Source: Dehalococcoidia bacterium (GTDB lineage: Bacteria; Chloroflexota; Dehalococcoidia; Lucifugimonadales; Lucifugimonadaceae). From it: a DNA stretch of 64,000 nucleotides. The translations under genes were made by a program, and so were the position numbers. The notes beneath the pieces are model-generated. The model was not told the origin of the DNA. It saw nothing but the letters and a program-made list of their open reading frames with translations, and ran no database searches. The DNA lies in the NCBI GenBank assembly GCA_022819585.1, contig JAJEGY010000009.1, positions 62,001 through 126,000 of the forward strand. The letters run 5' to 3'. Within the stretch, counting starts at the first letter, position 1, and every line of letters starts with the position of its first letter. This document shows positions 33,966 through 41,385 of the stretch, piece after piece.

Positions 33966-34523
33966 TCATTTTATCACAATTACTTCACTCTTGTGTTGCC
34001 CATCCAACCCCCTCATCATCCCCCGCAGATACTCGATCTGACCAAGATGCTCCGCCTCCTCACATAGCAAATGCCCAAGCACCCACGCATACGTCAACGG
34101 CGGGTCCCCCGTATCTTCAACTCCCTTCGACAGATCCTCCTCTCGCATCTCATTCGAAAAATACTCCCGCGTCCCGTGCCTGACCGCCTCGTAATACTCC
34201 ACCACCATCGCCACATCAAACGCTGGCATCGCAAGTATCTCTTCACGCGTCTGCCCGCCATGCTCCGCAACCTCCGCACCTTGCGGCAGCCGTGCCGCCC
34301 ATCCATCCTGCTCCCAAATCATCTCTGACCGACGCAACCCGATATTCACCCATCCATCCTCAACCTGTGCCATGTGCATCACCATCCAATCGATCGTGTT
34401 CGACTCCAACGTTGGACGCCAATGCAATTCATCCTCACTCAACCCATCTAACGCCCTCTTCAGCTTCTCAAAAGCCTCATTCAACCCCGAATCTATCGCA
34501 ACCAAGAACGGTTTCATTACCAT
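33966..34523 (-). CDS. DinB-like protein 1 of four
   Basis: 185 residues from the ATG at 34523, which overlaps the stop of the upstream DinB gene (TAATG); another ATG is at 34517. The open frame to 34613 is not part of it. Four-helix DinB fold: KPFLVAIDSGLNEAFEKL, WMVMHMAQVED (first metal His) and HLLCEEAEHLGQIEYLRGMMRGL. In the last motif the usual His-x3-His is Glu-x3-His. Most DinB-family proteins are thiol-dependent transferases or of unknown role. Confidence 0.9.
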   Translation of the reverse strand: MVMKPFLVAIDSGLNEAFEKLKRALDGLSEDELHWRPTLESNTIDWMVMHMAQVEDGWVNIGLRRSEMIWEQDGWAARLPQGAEVAEHGGQTREEILAMPAFDVAMVVEYYEAVRHGTREYFSNEMREEDLSKGVEDTGDPPLTYAWVLGHLLCEEAEHLGQIEYLRGMMRGLDGQHKSEVIVIK

Positions 34524-35044
34524 TACTTGTCCAACCCCCTCATCATCCCTCGCAGATACTCGATCTGTCCTAGATGCTCCGCCTCCTCGCATAGCAGGTG
34601 TCCCAAAATCCACGCGTAGCTGACCGGGTCATACCGAGGATGCGTAATCTCTTTCTTGAGGTCTTCCTCCTGCATCTCGTTCGCGAAGTAGCTCCGCGTG
34701 CCTTCTCGAACCGCAGAGTAATACTCCATCACCTTCGGCACGTCAAAAGCAGGCATTGCACGTATCGCCTCGCCGGTCAGTCCGAATCCGTTGCTCGGCT
34801 CCTCCACTCCTGTCTGTTCCGCCCAGCCGTCACGGTCCCAAATCGACTCCGACTCCCGCATCCGCACATTCACCCAGTTGTCCTCCACCCGCGCCATGTG
34901 CCACACCATCCAGTCGATCGTGTTCGATTCCAGAGCGGGACGCCAGTGCAGCTCATCTTCACTCAACCCGTCCAACGCCCTCTTCAACTTCTCAAAGGCC
35001 TCATTCAGACCAGAATCTATCGCTATCAGGAAAGGTCTCATCAT
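34523..35044 (-). CDS. DinB-like protein 2 of four
   Basis: 173 residues, highly similar along its length to proteins 1 and 3 (FLIAIDSGLNEAFEKLKRALDG, WMVWHMARVED, LLCEEAEHLGQ). Its start overlaps the stop of protein 3 by ATGA, and its stop overlaps the start of protein 1. This is the middle gene of a three-gene translationally coupled array. Confidence 0.92.
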   Translation of the reverse strand: MMRPFLIAIDSGLNEAFEKLKRALDGLSEDELHWRPALESNTIDWMVWHMARVEDNWVNVRMRESESIWDRDGWAEQTGVEEPSNGFGLTGEAIRAMPAFDVPKVMEYYSAVREGTRSYFANEMQEEDLKKEITHPRYDPVSYAWILGHLLCEEAEHLGQIEYLRGMMRGLDK

Positions 35045-35559
35045 TTGTTCAGTCCTCTCATCATGCCTCGGAGGTACTCGATCTGCCCGAGATGTTCAGC
35101 CTCTTCGCACAGTAGGCGACCCAAGATTTGAGCGCCGGTCCAACCTCGAAAGTTGGTATGCTCGATGGTTCGTGACAGGTCGGATTCGCTCATGCCATCT
35201 TCGAAGTAATCCGCTGTTGATTGTCGCACGGAACGGTAGTATTCCAATACCTTTGGCACGTCGATCCTGCCCATCTCGCCGATCTCACGCATCGTCATCC
35301 CCGCACCGGCGCCTGCGTATGTGATCGCCAGACGCCCACTCCAGTTGTCGCGCTCCCAGATGGCTCCGTGATTTTGAAGCACGACATTGATCAGATTGTC
35401 CTCCACCCGCGCCATGTGCCACACCATCCAATCGATGCTGTTCGACTGCAAAGTTGGACGCCAATTCAACTCATCCTCACTCAACCCGTCCAACGCCCTC
35501 TCCAACTTCTCAAAGGCCTCCTGCAACCCTGAATCGATCGCAACCAAAAACGGTTTCAT
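35041..35559 (-). CDS. DinB-like protein 3 of four
   Basis: 172 residues from the ATG at 35559. The frame is open to 35763 but would run into the IS element, and only from MKPFLVAIDSG does it resemble the family. It has the same motifs as its two neighbours, with QILGRLLCEEAEHLGQ replacing the first His of the last helix by Arg. It is the first gene of the operon; its upstream region is cut by the IS insertion 118 bp away. Confidence 0.9.
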   Translation of the reverse strand: MKPFLVAIDSGLQEAFEKLERALDGLSEDELNWRPTLQSNSIDWMVWHMARVEDNLINVVLQNHGAIWERDNWSGRLAITYAGAGAGMTMREIGEMGRIDVPKVLEYYRSVRQSTADYFEDGMSESDLSRTIEHTNFRGWTGAQILGRLLCEEAEHLGQIEYLRGMMRGLNK

Positions 35560-35668
35560 GCCAATTCCTTCACCTGTTGATCGGCTACATGACAGGCAAT
35601 CCAGTCTATCAACACTCAAAAGTGCTATTAATAGGCGTGTTTGTATGGCCACTTGTGGGTGGCTGTGT

Positions 35669-35676
35669 TTTTTTGG
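35669..35676 (+). repeat. Left target-site duplication of the IS element
   Basis: TTTTTTTG directly abuts the left inverted repeat and is identical to 38059-38066. Eight-bp duplications are usual for the IS1595 family. It is preceded by a short hairpin, GCCAC/GTGGC at 35649-35664. Confidence 0.9.
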
Positions 35677-35702
35677 GGAACTATATGGAATGCTACGCGA
35701 TT
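35677..35702 (+). repeat. Left terminal inverted repeat
   Basis: Begins GGGAACTATATGGAATGCTA and runs 26 bp. It differs from the right repeat at one position (T versus C at base 11). Confidence 0.92.
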
Positions 35703-35706
35703 GGGT

Positions 35707-35735
35707 TGACAAACGCGGATGTGCGTAGTAAACTG
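35707..35735 (+). promoter_or_regulatory. Transposase promoter
   Basis: TTGACA (35707-35712), 17 bp, TAAACT (35730-35735), 7 nt before the transposase ATG. It lies inside the left end of the element, so the -10 almost touches the start codon and the message may be near-leaderless, which would limit transposase synthesis. Confidence 0.6.
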
Positions 35736-35742
35736 AATAATT

Positions 35743-36693
35743 ATGAAGACAGCGCAGAGACAAGGCATCACACTCGTCGAAGCCGTCAAGATGTTCAGCA
35801 CCGAACTCAAGGCGGAAGACTGGTTCGTCAAGCAGAGATGGTCGGACGGACTACGTTGCCCTCGTTGCGATTCCGACAGGGTTCGCAGACAGAAGACGCG
35901 CAAACCCATGCCCTTCTATTGCAACCCTTGCCGCAAGTATTTCAGCGTCAAGACCGGCACTCCCATGCAGGATTCCAACATCCCGCTCTCCAAGTGGGCT
36001 ATAGCGTTCTATCTCTACAGCACGAACCTCAAGGGCGTGAGTTCCAACAAACTGCATCGAGACTTGGGTATCACGCAATCGAGCGCATGGCACATGGCTC
36101 ACCGCATCCGAGAGATTTGGAACGAAGACTCGCCCAAGTTCTTGGGCCCCGTCGAAGTCGATGAGACTTACATCGGCGGCAAAGAGCGCAACAAGCACGA
36201 GTCCAAGAAACTGCACGCGGGACGCGGCGCGGTGGGCAAAACCGCCGTCGTAGGCATCAGAGATCGTGACACGAACCGAGTGGACGCGGAAGTCGTAGCG
36301 TCCACAGACAGAGGCACGTTGCAGGGATTCGTCCGTGAACACACCGACACCGACGCTATGGTCTACACGGACGATGCGGCGGCTTACATCAACATCAACC
36401 GTCCGCATCAAGCGGTGAAACATTCAGTCAAAGAGTACGTACGAGGGCAGGCGCACACCAACGGCATAGAGTCGTTCTGGTCTATGCTCAAACGCGGATA
36501 CGTAGGCACGTACCACCACATGAGCCCCAAGCATCTGCATCGCTACGTCGATGAGTTCGCGGGACGGCACAACGTTCGCCCTATGGACACGGAAGTTCAG
36601 ATGTCCGAGATGGTCAAGTCCTCGCAGGGCAAACGTCTGCGCTATCGAGACTTGGTGGGCAATGCTCCCAATCGTCAATCCGCGCTGGTCTGA
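35743..36693 (+). CDS. IS1595 family transposase (ISXO2-like DDE)
   Basis: 316 residues. N-terminal zinc ribbon Cys39/Cys42/Cys60/Cys63 (CPRC...CNPC), followed by a HTH-like region (LHRDLGITQSSAWHMAHRI). The catalytic core has Asp140 in EVDETYIGG, Asp210 in YTDDAAAY and Glu243 in HTNGIESFWSMLKRG, as in ISXO2-like proteins. No frameshift or stop is present, so it is probably active. Its 3' end overlaps the convergent coiled-coil gene by 19 bp. Confidence 0.95.
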   Translation: MKTAQRQGITLVEAVKMFSTELKAEDWFVKQRWSDGLRCPRCDSDRVRRQKTRKPMPFYCNPCRKYFSVKTGTPMQDSNIPLSKWAIAFYLYSTNLKGVSSNKLHRDLGITQSSAWHMAHRIREIWNEDSPKFLGPVEVDETYIGGKERNKHESKKLHAGRGAVGKTAVVGIRDRDTNRVDAEVVASTDRGTLQGFVREHTDTDAMVYTDDAAAYININRPHQAVKHSVKEYVRGQAHTNGIESFWSMLKRGYVGTYHHMSPKHLHRYVDEFAGRHNVRPMDTEVQMSEMVKSSQGKRLRYRDLVGNAPNRQSALV

Positions 36694-36893
36694 CTCGGAA
36701 GTGGCGGGGGAGGTGGCGGCAAGCGTTTCTCGATGCTGTCAAGACGTTTCAGAACTTCGTCGAAACGTTTGTCCATCCGGGTTTCCAACGCGCCCAGACG
36801 TGTGACAACCTGTTGCTGACTGTCTTCAACACGCGCCAACCGTCCATGAAGATTCTCAAGTGTGATCTGCTTGGAGATTTCTTCGAGTGCCAT
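36675..36893 (-). CDS. Small coiled-coil protein carried by the IS
   Basis: 72 residues: a heptad-patterned helix (LENLHGRLARVEDSQQQVV, then LETRMDKRFDEVLKRLDSIEKRL) followed by a Pro-rich tail PPPPPPLP. It has the ATG at 36893 with GGAG upstream. Convergent with the transposase gene, whose last codons it overlaps. The long coiled coil suggests oligomerisation or a regulatory partner of the transposase; this is a guess. Confidence 0.7.
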   Translation of the reverse strand: MALEEISKQITLENLHGRLARVEDSQQQVVTRLGALETRMDKRFDEVLKRLDSIEKRLPPPPPPLPSQTSAD

Positions 36894-37015
36894 TCAGACT
36901 CCAATCTTTGTTCTGCCAATATCGGCGATTCTATACGCAACTGCCAACTTAAGTGTTCAGTTGCACTTCAAAAACTGTCACATCTAGGTATCTGAACTGT
37001 GTTAATGTTCGTACT

Positions 37016-37115
37016 GCTACATCAATCGTCTCTTGTTCGGGTGTTTCCGTTCAAGCGAGAACAGGGGCGCGTCGTGCCCCCTTCGTCGGCACACCCGAAC
37101 GACGGTTGATGTAGC
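37016..37115. ncRNA. 100-nt branched hairpin inside the IS
   Basis: The arms GCTACATCAATCGTC (37016-37030) and GACGGTTGATGTAGC (37101-37115) pair over 15 bp with one G-T. Next inside, GTTCGGGTGT pairs with ACACCCGAAC over 10 bp. Between them are two small hairpins, GTTC/GAAC and GGGGC/GCCCC, so the whole folds as a branched, cloverleaf-like structure. No T-run follows, so it is not a terminator. It sits in the 258-bp gap between divergent passenger genes, 36 bp before the GTG at 37152. It could be an RNA, an mRNA leader structure or a DNA-level recombination site; the strand is uncertain. Confidence 0.6.
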
Positions 37116-37151
37116 AAACGACCACTGTTCTAGCCGCGAGGGGGTGCCAAG

Positions 37152-37826
37152 GTGTGGAGGAAAGCGATTCTATGGATCGTAGGAATCTTCGTCGTTCTGC
37201 TTGTGGCATGGCTAGGCGCGCGTCAATGCGCCGTCAGGGAGCATCCCGACTTGGACTGGCTGGAAGGGCGGATCGATCTGTCAGAGGCGCAACTCGATTT
37301 GGCTGACGCCTACGCGGTGGGATGCAGGACTGACATTGCCCTGTGGGTTGAGAAAGCCGCGGTGGAGGACGAGCTCCGCACGGTCAGAGGCATGATCGTC
37401 ATGGTGCCGGACGCGGGACTCACGGGGGAATACGGACGGTGGCTGGCCGATCAGGTCATGGACGTGTCTGACAGGGCGGCGATTGTAAGCGAACAGATAA
37501 GCTACGCCTGCGACGATCAGTCGGCAGGTACGCGGGGGAATGCGCCAGTCGAGCCGGAATTGGTGGCAACCGCCGTGTCGGTGCCTGCCGAGACCGGATC
37601 AGACGAAACCGAGCCTGACGAACTCCCGTCCGTCATTCTCGTCAAAGATGTCATCTTCGGATGCGACTGGCTTTTCGAGCAGTTCGAGGATATGACTCCC
37701 GAGGAAGTATCGGACCCGTGGGAGCGCATGGCATACCTGATGACGCGCTATTGGGACTTGTCGGGACGCTACGCGGACTTCAACAGAGATGAGGCAAAAG
37801 CGGCTTACATGGAATGCAGAGGATAG
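37152..37826 (+). CDS. Membrane-anchored hypothetical passenger protein of the IS
   Basis: 224 residues from a GTG start, with GAGGGGG upstream. Residues about 5-23 (ILWIVGIFVVLLVAWLG) form a signal anchor; the rest is acidic and helical, ends DEAKAAYMECRG, and has four further Cys residues (CAVRE, GCRTD, ACDDQ, GCDWL). A low-complexity acidic/Pro stretch lies at residues 130-160. I recognise no family. It may be cargo unrelated to transposition. Confidence 0.65.
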   Translation: MWRKAILWIVGIFVVLLVAWLGARQCAVREHPDLDWLEGRIDLSEAQLDLADAYAVGCRTDIALWVEKAAVEDELRTVRGMIVMVPDAGLTGEYGRWLADQVMDVSDRAAIVSEQISYACDDQSAGTRGNAPVEPELVATAVSVPAETGSDETEPDELPSVILVKDVIFGCDWLFEQFEDMTPEEVSDPWERMAYLMTRYWDLSGRYADFNRDEAKAAYMECRG

Positions 37827-37835
37827 CGGAGAGAG

Positions 37836-38000
37836 TCACGCTCTCCCTTCGCGCTTCGCCGCTTCCTCCATGTATCGCCACTTGGTCTTTGGCTTCGCAT
37901 TCATAAAAACCCGCGCGATGTCCTCCGGCGACGCGTCGATGCGTTCCGGCATCTCGTGTTTGCGCGGTCTTCCGACCGGACGTTTGGCATTCGTGGACAT
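37836..38000 (-). CDS. 54-residue AT-hook-like small protein of the IS
   Basis: Short frame from ATG 38000 to TGA 37836. It reads MSTNAKRPVGRPRKHEMPER, then DASPEDIARVFMNAKPKTKW and RYMEEAAKREGRA. RPVGRPRKH is an AT-hook-like DNA-binding core, and IDASPEDIARVFM looks like a short helix. From memory, very similar short GRPR-HEMPE proteins occur near mobile genes in uncultivated bacteria. It ends 9 bp from the 224-residue gene (convergent). It may bind the inverted repeats or regulate the element. Confidence 0.7.
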   Translation of the reverse strand: MSTNAKRPVGRPRKHEMPERIDASPEDIARVFMNAKPKTKWRYMEEAAKREGRA

Positions 38001-38032
38001 ACCTAGATGTTACATGTAAAGTCTAGGTTCTT

Positions 38033-38058
38033 ATCGCGTAGCATTCCGTATAGTTCCC
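38033..38058 (-). repeat. Right terminal inverted repeat
   Basis: Read on the minus strand it begins GGGAACTATACGGAATGCTA, matching the left end at 25 of 26 positions. Confidence 0.92.
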
Positions 38059-38066
38059 TTTTTTTG
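38059..38066 (+). repeat. Right target-site duplication
   Basis: TTTTTTTG, identical to 35669-35676. Confidence 0.9.
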
Positions 38067-38780
38067 CTCCTCCCCCTGCGCCTTTTCAGGGGCGCAGGGT
38101 CGCTTTCGCCTTGCGGCTCAGCTAGGAGGTCGGGTCATGGGGCCGAATATACTGCCCTGGTCCTTGAGCTTCGGTCTTTGTACTTCGACTTCGGCTCCTT
38201 CCCTCTCCATCGCCTCTTCCGTTGCCGGTTGAGGACGACCCCGGAGAGGGGTCAGATGCTGCGCAGAGCGGTGTGTCAGACCGCTAGCTTCCAGATCCAG
38301 ACGCGGCACGCGTCGCCAGACCGCGTGCTTGGTCGTCGGCGCGGTGCTTTGGTGCACCGTTCGGAGTACGCCGCCTTCCTTCGATTCACCCTCGCGGGAT
38401 CCTCTCGCGCTGTAGCCTCCCTCCTGTGATGGGCAGGAGTAGACGTCTGTCGGCTCCACGTGCGGTCTCCCGGCCCTTGGCACGACGTCCGTTAGTAACG
38501 AACGCCTGCTGGCTCGCTCTGCGGCGCAGGACTGCTGCGCCGCGCTCCGGGAACTGTGCCTCCCACGCTTCGGCACGGACCCTCGCGGTCTTGCGGCGGA
38601 CTTCCGATCCGCCGAGGGACGCCACCAGAGAACATTTAGACGCGGGGATACTGCGCGGTGGTTCGCGCTTTTTTGTGTATCGATCTTTGCCTTCATGTCC
38701 TCACGCTTTCTCCCTGTGACCGTCTGGGTCGGGGGTCTGCACACGTCTGCGCAGCACTGTTTTCGATCCGTCGATCTGGT
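38067..38780 (-). ncRNA. Candidate large structured noncoding RNA of unknown class
   Basis: About 710 bp with no credible gene. Perfect local hairpins: 38074-38099 (9 bp), 38237-38253 (6 bp), 38343-38358 (5 bp), 38421-38439 (6 bp), 38521-38543 (9 bp), 38580-38618 (two-part stem) and 38653-38668 (5 bp). A long-range helix pairs 38734-38755 with 38258-38282 through 6, 5 and 10 bp, enclosing 451 nt. A strong minus-strand promoter (38785-38812) points into it. I looked for RNase P, tmRNA, group II domain V and riboswitch signatures and found none. The 3' end is undefined and may have been altered by the adjacent IS insertion. A 192-codon minus frame exists but has an Arg/Ser-rich composition typical of spurious reading. 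Confidence 0.55.
38653..38674 (+). terminator. Terminator-like hairpin on the plus strand
   Basis: GCGCG GTGGTT CGCGC followed by six T (38669-38674). On the plus strand it would stop any read-through from the IS. On the minus strand the same bases form an internal hairpin of the candidate RNA. Confidence 0.5.
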
Positions 38781-38784
38781 ATCT

Positions 38785-38812
38785 ATATTACTACGAATGT
38801 TCGCGATGTCAA
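38785..38812 (-). promoter_or_regulatory. Strong sigma70-type promoter reading into the structured region
   Basis: On the minus strand TTGACA (38812-38807), 16 bp, TAATAT (38790-38785): near-consensus in both boxes. The nearest downstream sequence is the structured region, not a gene. Transcription would start near 38778. It lies 33 bp from the stop of the DinB-like gene at 38845, which is transcribed in the same direction, so it is a separate promoter. Confidence 0.7.
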
Positions 38813-38844: not shown

Positions 38845-39363
38845 CTACTGATCCAATCCCCGCATCATGCCCCTCAGATACGCGATCTGGCCTAGGTGCT
38901 GTGCTTCCTCGACCAAGATGTGTCCCCAAACCCATGCGCCGCTTACCGCAACCTTTCTGCGTGGGTGGTAGAACTCTTTGTCCAAATCCTCCACCGGCAT
39001 CGAATCGAGATGCGCCAGCGTGACCTCCCGAGCCGCCCGGTAGTAGTCCATCATCTCGTTGATGTCCGTCTTGGGCATCGCTCGCATCTTCTCCGCCGTG
39101 TCCTCACGACCGTAATCGTCCGGGTCCATCCCGAAACGCTTATACCACCCGTACTTGACCCAGATGTCATCATCCTGCCGGAGCACCAAGTTCACCCAAC
39201 GGTCCTCCACCCTCGCCATGTGCCACACGATCCACTCGATGAAGTTCGCATGGAGCGCCGGTTGATACCGCAACTCATCTTTACTCAAACCATCCAAAGC
39301 TTTCTCAAGCCCCTCCATATACTCGATCAGCCCGCTCCGGACGGCATCCCGAAAATCACTCAT
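38845..39363 (-). CDS. DinB-like protein 4 of four
   Basis: 172 residues, the most divergent of the local set: WIVWHMARVEDRWVNL and WGHILVEEAQHLGQIAYLRGMMRGLDQ. It keeps the Glu-x3-His form of the last motif. It was probably part of one DinB cluster with 33966-35559 before the IS and structured region came to lie between them, or arose by separate duplication. The 44-bp gap to the UxuA-like gene upstream suggests a common transcript. Confidence 0.9.
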   Translation of the reverse strand: MSDFRDAVRSGLIEYMEGLEKALDGLSKDELRYQPALHANFIEWIVWHMARVEDRWVNLVLRQDDDIWVKYGWYKRFGMDPDDYGREDTAEKMRAMPKTDINEMMDYYRAAREVTLAHLDSMPVEDLDKEFYHPRRKVAVSGAWVWGHILVEEAQHLGQIAYLRGMMRGLDQ

Positions 39364-39407: not shown

Positions 39408-40385
39408 TCATCCCGTCGCCGATCCCTTCGTCACCGCCTCGATCATCGCTTGAATATACCCGTTCGCAAACGCCCTGCCCCGGTGTCCCCATTGTGTATC
39501 CCCGAACGTCTGAGGAACGTGATCATCGATGAAGAAGCCATCAAACCCGACCTCGTGATAGATCTTCATCGCTTTGTACATGTCCACATGCCCCGTGTTG
39601 ATGAACTCCTCATGGAACTTCGGAACCGTTCCCGAGACATTGCGGAAGTGGACGTAGAGAATCTTCTTCCGCTTTCCGAAATACCGGATCATGTCATAGA
39701 TTCCACCATCCGCCGCATCTTCCATCTCCGAGAAAGTGCCCTGACAGAACTCGATTCCGTTGCATGGCGAGTCGACGATCTCGATCAACCGCTTGTAGGA
39801 CTCGAACGATCTGAAGAGAAACGGAATCCCACCCAGCTTCTCCACCGGCGGGTCACATGGATGGATTCCGCGCCGGACTCCCGCCTCCTCAGCGACCGGC
39901 GTGATGATCCGAATCCACTCCTCCAGTCGTTCCCACATCCCCTCCTCGTCATAGTCCTCGCCATGCGTAACCGGGTACTTCTTCCCCTCCTCATAGTCAA
40001 AGGCCGTGGCAAGCGCACCAGCGCGAATCAGCTCCGGTTGAGTGCGCCATACCTTCTGAGGCATCCAGCTGTACCCAAAGATAGGAATTCCGGCGGTGCC
40101 GATGTTCCTGATCGTCTCGATCATGTTCTCGATCTGCTGTTCCCGGTTTGGGCCACCCAAAACGATTTGATCGTAGAAATGCGACGGAACGTTCTCAAGC
40201 GCCGTGAGGCTTAAGCCTTCGCTCTCCACCTGCAAGCGCAGCTTCACCAGATCGTTCACCGCCCACTTCCCACCAGCCTCCGGCAGCTTGGGCCTATTCA
40301 ACAGCACATCGGTCGCGCCGAACTGCGCCGCAAACCTCAAATACTCACGGCTCGGAGTATCGAACTGTCCGAATCCCGCACGCAT
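39408..40385 (-). CDS. UxuA-like (mannonate dehydratase family) TIM-barrel protein, copy 1
   Basis: 325 residues, shorter than the roughly 390 of true UxuA. Family blocks: IENMIETIRNIGTAGIPIFGYSWMP, GIHPCDPPVEKLGGIPFLFRS, VDSPCNGIEFCQGTFSEM, KILYVHFRNVSG and NTGHVDMYKAM. The GIHPCDPP and FCQG segments carry the expected His/Cys metal-ligand region. Likely a sugar-acid dehydratase or isomerase of unassigned substrate. It is a tandem copy of the gene at 40417, 31 bp away. Confidence 0.88.
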   Translation of the reverse strand: MRAGFGQFDTPSREYLRFAAQFGATDVLLNRPKLPEAGGKWAVNDLVKLRLQVESEGLSLTALENVPSHFYDQIVLGGPNREQQIENMIETIRNIGTAGIPIFGYSWMPQKVWRTQPELIRAGALATAFDYEEGKKYPVTHGEDYDEEGMWERLEEWIRIITPVAEEAGVRRGIHPCDPPVEKLGGIPFLFRSFESYKRLIEIVDSPCNGIEFCQGTFSEMEDAADGGIYDMIRYFGKRKKILYVHFRNVSGTVPKFHEEFINTGHVDMYKAMKIYHEVGFDGFFIDDHVPQTFGDTQWGHRGRAFANGYIQAMIEAVTKGSATG

Positions 40386-40416
40386 CGCGTATCCCCTTAC
40401 TTCGCCTACCTCACTG

Positions 40417-41385
40417 CTATCCCTGCTTCGTCACCGCTTCGATCATCGCTTGGATGTAGCCGTTCGCGAACGCCCTGCCGCGGTGTCCCCACTGGGTATC
40501 CTCGAACGTCTGAGGGACATGGTCATCGATGAAGAACGAGTCGTATCCCACCTCGTGATAGATCTTCATCGCCTTGTACATGTCGACGTGGCCGGTGTTG
40601 ATGAACTCCTCACGGAACTTCGGCACGGGCCCCGACACGTTGCGGAAGTGGACATATAGGATCTTTTTTCGTTCGCCGAAGTAGCGGATCATGTCGTAGA
40701 TGCCGCCATCCGCCGCGTCCTCCATCTCCGAGAATGTTCCCTGACAGAACTCGATGGCGTTGCATGGGGAGTCGACGATCTCGATCAATCGCTTGTAAGA
40801 GTCGAACGACCTGAAGAGTTGCGGGATTCCTCCCAACTTCTCGACGGGCGGGTCGCATGGGTGAATGCCACATCGGACACCGGCTTCCTCGGCGACCGGC
40901 GTGATGATCCGAATCCATTCCTCCAATCGCTCCCACATCTCCTCCTCCGTGTGCTCGCGACCATGGGTGTTCGCCATCTTCTGAGCTTCCTCATTGTCGA
41001 AGGCCGTCGCCAATGCCCCGCCTCTGATGATCGCAGGTGTCGTCCGCCAGACATGCGAGGGCATCCAGTTGTAGCCGAAGATCGGAATCCCGGCCGCCCC
41101 GATGTTCCGCACGGTCTCGATCATGTTCTCGATCTGCCGCTCCCGGTTCGGACCACCAAGCATGATCTCCAAGTAGAAATGCGTCGGCACATTCTCCAGC
41201 GCCATCAACTTCAACCCCTCGCTCTCGACCTGCAACCGCAGCTTCACCAGATCGTTCACTGCCCACTTTCCACCTGCATCCGGCAACTGTGGGGTGTTCA
41301 GCAACACATCCTTGACCCCGTACTGCGCCGCGAACCGCAGATACTCACGGCTCGGGTTATTGAACTGCCCAAATCCTGCTCGCAT
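40417..41385 (-). CDS. UxuA-like TIM-barrel protein, copy 2
   Basis: 322 residues, identical to copy 1 at most positions by eye, including long unbroken blocks such as KWAVNDLVKLRLQVESEGL and DSPCNAIEFCQGTFSEMED. Differences concentrate around residues 120-150 (TAFDNEEAQKMANTHGREH versus YEEGKKYPVTHGEDYDEEG), a loop near the likely active-site entrance. First gene of the pair. Changed loop with conserved core suggests substrate divergence after duplication. Confidence 0.88.
   Translation of the reverse strand: MRAGFGQFNNPSREYLRFAAQYGVKDVLLNTPQLPDAGGKWAVNDLVKLRLQVESEGLKLMALENVPTHFYLEIMLGGPNRERQIENMIETVRNIGAAGIPIFGYNWMPSHVWRTTPAIIRGGALATAFDNEEAQKMANTHGREHTEEEMWERLEEWIRIITPVAEEAGVRCGIHPCDPPVEKLGGIPQLFRSFDSYKRLIEIVDSPCNAIEFCQGTFSEMEDAADGGIYDMIRYFGERKKILYVHFRNVSGPVPKFREEFINTGHVDMYKAMKIYHEVGYDSFFIDDHVPQTFEDTQWGHRGRAFANGYIQAMIEAVTKQG

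Follow-up and report, generated by a model that had tools for sequence, protein, structure and literature searches.

A Multicopy Family of Candidate Large Structured RNA Genes in One Genus of SAR202 Chloroflexota

Introduction

Bacterial RNAs that are large, structured and without known function are few, and strongly covarying ones have led to new RNA biochemistry. ROOL and GOLLD, two such RNAs, are reported to assemble into RNA homo-oligomers (PMC12286853). OLE RNA usually occurs in a single copy with linkage to protein partners, and RNAs of the HEARO and omega-RNA type are structured and may be multicopy in one genome.

The family described here resembles ROOL and GOLLD in size class, in its many conserved stems and long-range closing pairing, in the absence of a coding frame, and in its unresolved function; it meets the criterion of a large noncoding RNA with a covarying multi-stem fold. 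Unlike ROOL and GOLLD, it has no Rfam match and no blastn match in phage and plasmid collections, and it occurs as 17–33 dispersed chromosomal copies in one genus only. It shares with OLE its size class and its highly structured, noncoding character, but it is present in many copies with unrelated neighbours and no Rfam match. The possibility of many copies per genome is shared with the structured HEARO and omega-RNA types; the present RNA is several times longer, has no Rfam match, and shows no TnpB/IscB-like gene among its listed neighbours, which were not inspected systematically. Multicopy ribosomal RNA genes offer a further parallel, being dispersed at shared sites and more alike within a genome than to their counterparts elsewhere. 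The present RNA is unrelated to them, however, and its diverged subfamilies coexist while sites gain and lose copies.

Results and Discussion

A Conserved Fold

The window, a stretch of 64,000 nucleotides, contains one copy of the putative RNA gene on its minus strand (Table 1). Its promoter matches the consensus at 10 of 12 positions, where 0.3 promoter-like sites would be expected in the region by chance. Transcription is expected to start near 38778, an inference from sequence alone for which there are no transcript data. The minus strand folds with a minimum free energy of −323.7 kcal/mol (z = −4.55), and none of 20 shuffles was as low.

Table 1. Features of the RNA gene and of the insertion sequence in the window
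Feature	Position	Strand	Evidence
Promoter of RNA gene	38785..38812	-	TTGACA 38812-38807, 16-nt spacer, TAATAT 38790-38785; consensus scan
RNA gene body, 5' and central parts, to IS insertion point	38059..38778 (5' end approximate)	-	repeat family, alignment, covariation, fold z-score
Long-range helix, 5' arm	38735..38759	-	helix alignment test
Long-range helix, 3' arm	38253..38282	-	helix alignment test
Most conserved core domain (covariance models R2/R3)	38302..38477	-	198.5 bits R2, 124.3 bits R3
Open frame, judged noncoding	38118..38744	-	208 codons from GTG, 192 from inner ATG
Severed 3' tail of RNA gene	35634..35675	-	hairpin CCACCCACAAGUGG and conserved end AAACACGCC
IS1595-family insertion	35676..38058		26-bp terminal inverted repeats, Pfam DDE_Tnp_IS1595 2.4e-40, 8-bp duplication
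ISXO2-like transposase inside IS	35743-36693	+	Pfam DDE_Tnp_IS1595 2.4e-40
Target-site duplication TTTTTTTG, left copy	35668..35675		direct repeat in IS flanks
Target-site duplication TTTTTTTG, right copy	38059..38066		direct repeat in IS flanks

The two arms of the long-range helix pair across 25 bp with bulges; over seven sequences, 93.6% of cells are paired, against 20–46% in slid controls. In alignments made with MAFFT only and not fitted to any structure, four pairs of this helix are compensated by changes on both sides, and in 16 of the 37 core pairs predicted, both sides have changed with pairing kept. Two model-fitted alignments give higher counts: 29 of 37 pairs compensated in A5 (covariation 0.392, versus 0.141 when shuffled) and 27 of 33 core pairs in A6 (0.462 versus 0.168), with slid-control values of at most 0.086. 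The pair counts of A5 and A6 favour the model structure, because these alignments were fitted to it. Entire helices have been replaced by equally well pairing ones, as in CACGCG/CGCGTG versus CCCATG/CATGGG and CTCCTG/CAGGAG versus CCCTTG/CAAGGG.

Several sequence subfamilies have one common fold: a multidomain body closed by the long-range helix, with variable outer hairpins. The core motifs CCGGCAGACGUC and GGCUACAGC and the loop GGUCUGGCGAC are conserved across subfamilies, and the core domain of the window copy includes the hairpin that bears this almost invariant loop. A short 3' tail, present in many copies, ends in AAACGCGCCC or AAACACGCCC.

In type-I copies (for example L009, L015 and L018), palindromic repeats of intergenic type occur in one variable hairpin, after GAGCCAGC. 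They lengthen these copies by several tens of nucleotides and leave the fold unbroken.

Coding Potential and Known RNA Families

The locus might be a decayed or overlapping protein-coding gene whose folding is incidental. In favour of this view, those type-I copies that are readable as far as their stop codon carry an open frame of 192–223 codons. Against it, variable sites are spread over the three codon positions of this frame without bias (0.41, 0.45 and 0.43), and indel lengths modulo 3 (21/20/10) show no clear preference for multiples of three (21 of 51). The ATG is lost in the relative G002, a Pfam search of the frame gave no match, and compensatory changes are extensive. The criterion of codon-position bias and frame conservation is not met, and a coding gene can be all but excluded.

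Rfam 15, tested with families that include ROOL, GOLLD, OLE, HEARO, RNase P, tmRNA, group I and II introns and riboswitches, gives no match over the element in the window at gathering thresholds and none near gathering at E ≤ 5. Over loci of other subfamilies no model matches across the element, and permissive matches fall far below gathering. An ORF-less group II intron was considered and rejected, there being no Intron_gpII match (domain V/VI) even at permissive thresholds. A cobalamin riboswitch match of 34.8 bits (L182:1-83) lies about 5 kb from one copy in G005.

A preliminary description of the locus had proposed a large structured RNA transcribed from a promoter of its own, a proposal supported by covariation, promoter conservation, the lack of a coding signal and the lack of an Rfam match. 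Its near-consensus minus-strand promoter was recovered in a consensus scan and is conserved over subfamilies; the structure that it noted is borne out by the fold z-score; and its long-range helix of 21 bp is confirmed and extended, with compensated pairs. Its statement that there is no plausible gene stands, though no stop interrupts the 192-codon frame in type-I copies, as does its failure to see signatures of known RNAs, at gathering and permissive thresholds alike. The resemblance that it saw to OLE, GOLLD and ROOL holds in style only, no sequence–structure match having been found. The observations that it had named as refuting the proposal (coding conservation, no conservation of pairing, a match to a known RNA) were sought and not met.

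Copy Number and Distribution

A BLAST search of the source genome (G000) with the DNA of the element returned 28 pieces; leaving aside the window copy, they are 78–95% identical, and many of them sit at contig ends. Because a contig break halves a copy, the 28 pieces represent some 15 copies of the type found in the window. Among relatives, BLAST gave clear matches in two more members of the genus and a weak one in a third. Modelling the 3' core by covariance (R1) brought in extra diverged copies from G004 and G005. With these included, the next model (R2) detected copies in 7 of 7 genomes of the genus, in 0 of 69 further genomes from the family and in 0 of 243 further genomes from the order. 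The model built from 46 copies (R3) has 33 matches in G000, 25 in G006, 17 in G005 (a complete, single-contig relative), 10 in G002, 6 in G004, 2 in G001 and 1 in G003; some matches in G000 and G006 are two halves of one copy. R3 has no match in the tested sister genus.

Covariance searches of class and phylum samples, about 400 genomes each, found nothing outside the genus, and the element is absent from about 850 other genomes sampled by such searches across family, order, class and phylum. A pattern scan of the genome collection gave 91 stretches, of which only those of this genus passed the covariance model, the rest being chance; a pattern scan of viral contigs gave two stretches, neither of which passed. 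Genome sets larger than 40 were searched with stricter filters, so that weak distant relatives might escape, and covariance E-values are rough owing to short calibration. No earlier description was found in the open-access literature searched, which is weak evidence of absence. Within the genomes sampled, the family is likely to be previously unrecorded and confined to one genus of SAR202 Chloroflexota.

The genus is placed in the SAR202 cluster of the Dehalococcoidia, and its members are inferred to be sponge symbionts from record names and from literature on SAR202 in sponges (PMC6306507). Copies are about 0.79–0.87 kb long (0.94–1.04 kb in one subfamily). Up to about 30 of them are present, making up some 1% of the 2.5 Mb of a symbiont genome. 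Most genomes of the genus are fragmented MAGs broken at RNA copies; many contig ends of the source MAG fall inside them. With copies in every member of the genus examined and found nowhere else, function, expression in sponge metatranscriptomes and evolution are directly testable.

Promoters of the Copies

A TTGACA/TATAAT-type site is present in 57 of the 63 copies with enough upstream sequence. In 56 of these it lies at the 5' end, in a context of CTTGAC or TTTGAC type; the exception, at G006:C15, is an apparent chance match. It is thus inferred that a sigma-70-like promoter opens about 56 of 63 testable copies, in all subfamilies, and the criterion for an independent noncoding RNA gene, that its own promoter be kept over copies, is met.

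A TTCAGAC-like motif precedes 30 of the 63 copies. A low-complexity intergenic repeat of the AATCCCAAAAATCCCAGTTCAGACAAA type adjoins many copies, as it does upstream of 38820 in the window, and it is also present at the copy-free polA site of G004. Flanking repeats of this type might conceivably provide homology for cassette exchange.

Genomic Sites and Evolution

Judged by neighbouring genes, whose names we take from their translations, the same intergenic sites are occupied in different species. The site upstream of ilvE holds a copy in G000, G004, G005 and G006, and that upstream of rpsP in G000, G005 and G006; other common sites adjoin a radical-SAM gene, a racemase gene and an acyl-CoA synthetase-like gene, among others. 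Common sites span two to four species. The tree of copies groups them by subfamily and genome and not by site, and rpsP, polA and other sites carry different subfamilies in different species. Since copies occupy common sites yet group by genome, they are inferred to be homogenised or exchanged. Shared sites, homogenisation within genomes and several coexisting subfamilies make an unusual mode of evolution.

The RNA could be a long cis-acting leader, that is, a 5' part of an mRNA that controls the downstream gene by attenuation or in the manner of a riboswitch. At most species-shared sites (11 of 12 in G005 and 9 of 10 in G000, for example), the RNA and its downstream gene share a strand, though these counts depend on simple ORF calling. 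A DinB gene on the same strand begins about 75 nt past the severed tail in the window, and two mutually exclusive pairings of CCCUCUCC, read from the alignment, are possible in type I. Several features speak against a leader. Although the majority of downstream genes are same-strand, the expectation that every one be so is not met: they are convergent at several sites, one of which is preserved in at least three species (G002, G004 and G005), and for most copies in G002. The downstream genes are unrelated, comprising ilvE, rpsP, ligA, polA, a sulfatase and dehydrogenases. At polA there is a copy in G005, a weak match in G000 (32 bits, diverged subfamily) and no copy in G001, G002, G004 or G006; ligA has a copy in G000 and G006 and none in G002, G004 or G005. 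In species without the RNA, polA and ligA keep the same proximal promoter-like sequence, and the RNA is therefore not a required leader. We regard the leader hypothesis as unlikely.

A second alternative, which remains possible, is a mobile, nonautonomous RNA-bearing element, in which the RNA would be the guide or substrate of an enzyme acting in trans and the copies would be intergenic insertions. High copy number, species-specific sets of copies, presence and absence at polA and ligA, and pairs of copies in G005 that are 96–99% alike though far apart are all in keeping with mobility. In the nine copies with both ends defined, however, terminal inverted repeats (4.0 nt, against 4.3 for the null) and direct repeats that would mark target duplications (mean 4.1 nt, against 3.9) do not rise above expectation, and the criterion for a DNA transposon or MITE, terminal inverted repeats with target-site duplications, is not met. 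Many sites are common to several species, and a nonsystematic look at the nearest neighbours listed revealed no linked mobility gene. The near-identity of the G005 pairs L177/L180 and L183/L184 stops just after the long helix and does not extend over the whole unit, which suggests gene conversion.

We lean, by a modest margin, toward a family of independent noncoding RNA genes that act in trans. Homology, fold, promoter-like site, copy number, restriction to the genus, shared intergenic sites and absence of a coding signal are shown; expression and function in trans are inferred. The case for an RNA gene is strong, and there are no transcript data. Under this hypothesis each copy would be transcribed from its own sigma-70-like promoter, and the RNA, by analogy with the other large ornate RNAs of bacteria, may act in trans, either as a folded molecule or as an RNA–protein particle. 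The many copies would serve dosage, and their likeness within a genome may be maintained by gene conversion or cassette exchange. Two observations count against independent RNA genes. The same-strand bias of downstream genes is not predicted by independence and is unexplained, so that some role in cis cannot be dismissed; and the presence and absence of copies at polA and ligA among close relatives also suits mobility.

A bolder reading is that the ornate RNA gene is a cassette held at fixed intergenic stations, that cassettes of different subfamilies are swapped between stations by recombination, and that the RNA takes an active part in keeping its copies alike or in spreading them. Such an element would be a novel sort of genomic resident, but this reading as a whole seems improbable to us.

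Interruption of the Window Copy by an Insertion Sequence

The window copy is split near its 3' end by an insertion of the IS1595 family. The flanks of the IS share the 8-bp repeat TTTTTTTG and, when rejoined, restore the 3' tail, which places the IS inside the RNA gene: read together, they bring in the segment 35675-35634, which matches the tail of uninterrupted copies. The preliminary description had the RNA directly beside an IS insertion site, and in this it was mistaken. The gene is interrupted at 38058/38059 and resumes at 35675; what had been taken as the 3' boundary is the insertion point and not the end of the gene. Neither the split nor the family of 17–33 copies in one genus had been seen. 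The interruption may have impaired this copy.

The IS is complete (2.4 kb), and its two ends (35676-35701 and 38033-38058) form imperfect inverted repeats of 26 nt. Its passenger ORFs encode 224 aa (37152-37826; no match in a Pfam search), 72 aa and 54 aa. A near-perfect palindrome, ACCTAGATGTTACATGTAAAGTCTAGGT, lies within the IS at 38001-38028, and one half of it recurs, inverted, about 1 kb off at 36976-36991.

The DinB gene past the severed tail is assigned as a paralogue of the DinB gene upstream from the likeness of their translations. The two belong to a run of DinB/mycothiol-transferase-like paralogues on the minus strand at 33966-35571 and 38845-39363, and the RNA gene lies between two members of this run. 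Two neighbouring UxuA-like mannonate dehydratase genes, tandem paralogues and also on the minus strand, occupy 39408-41385.
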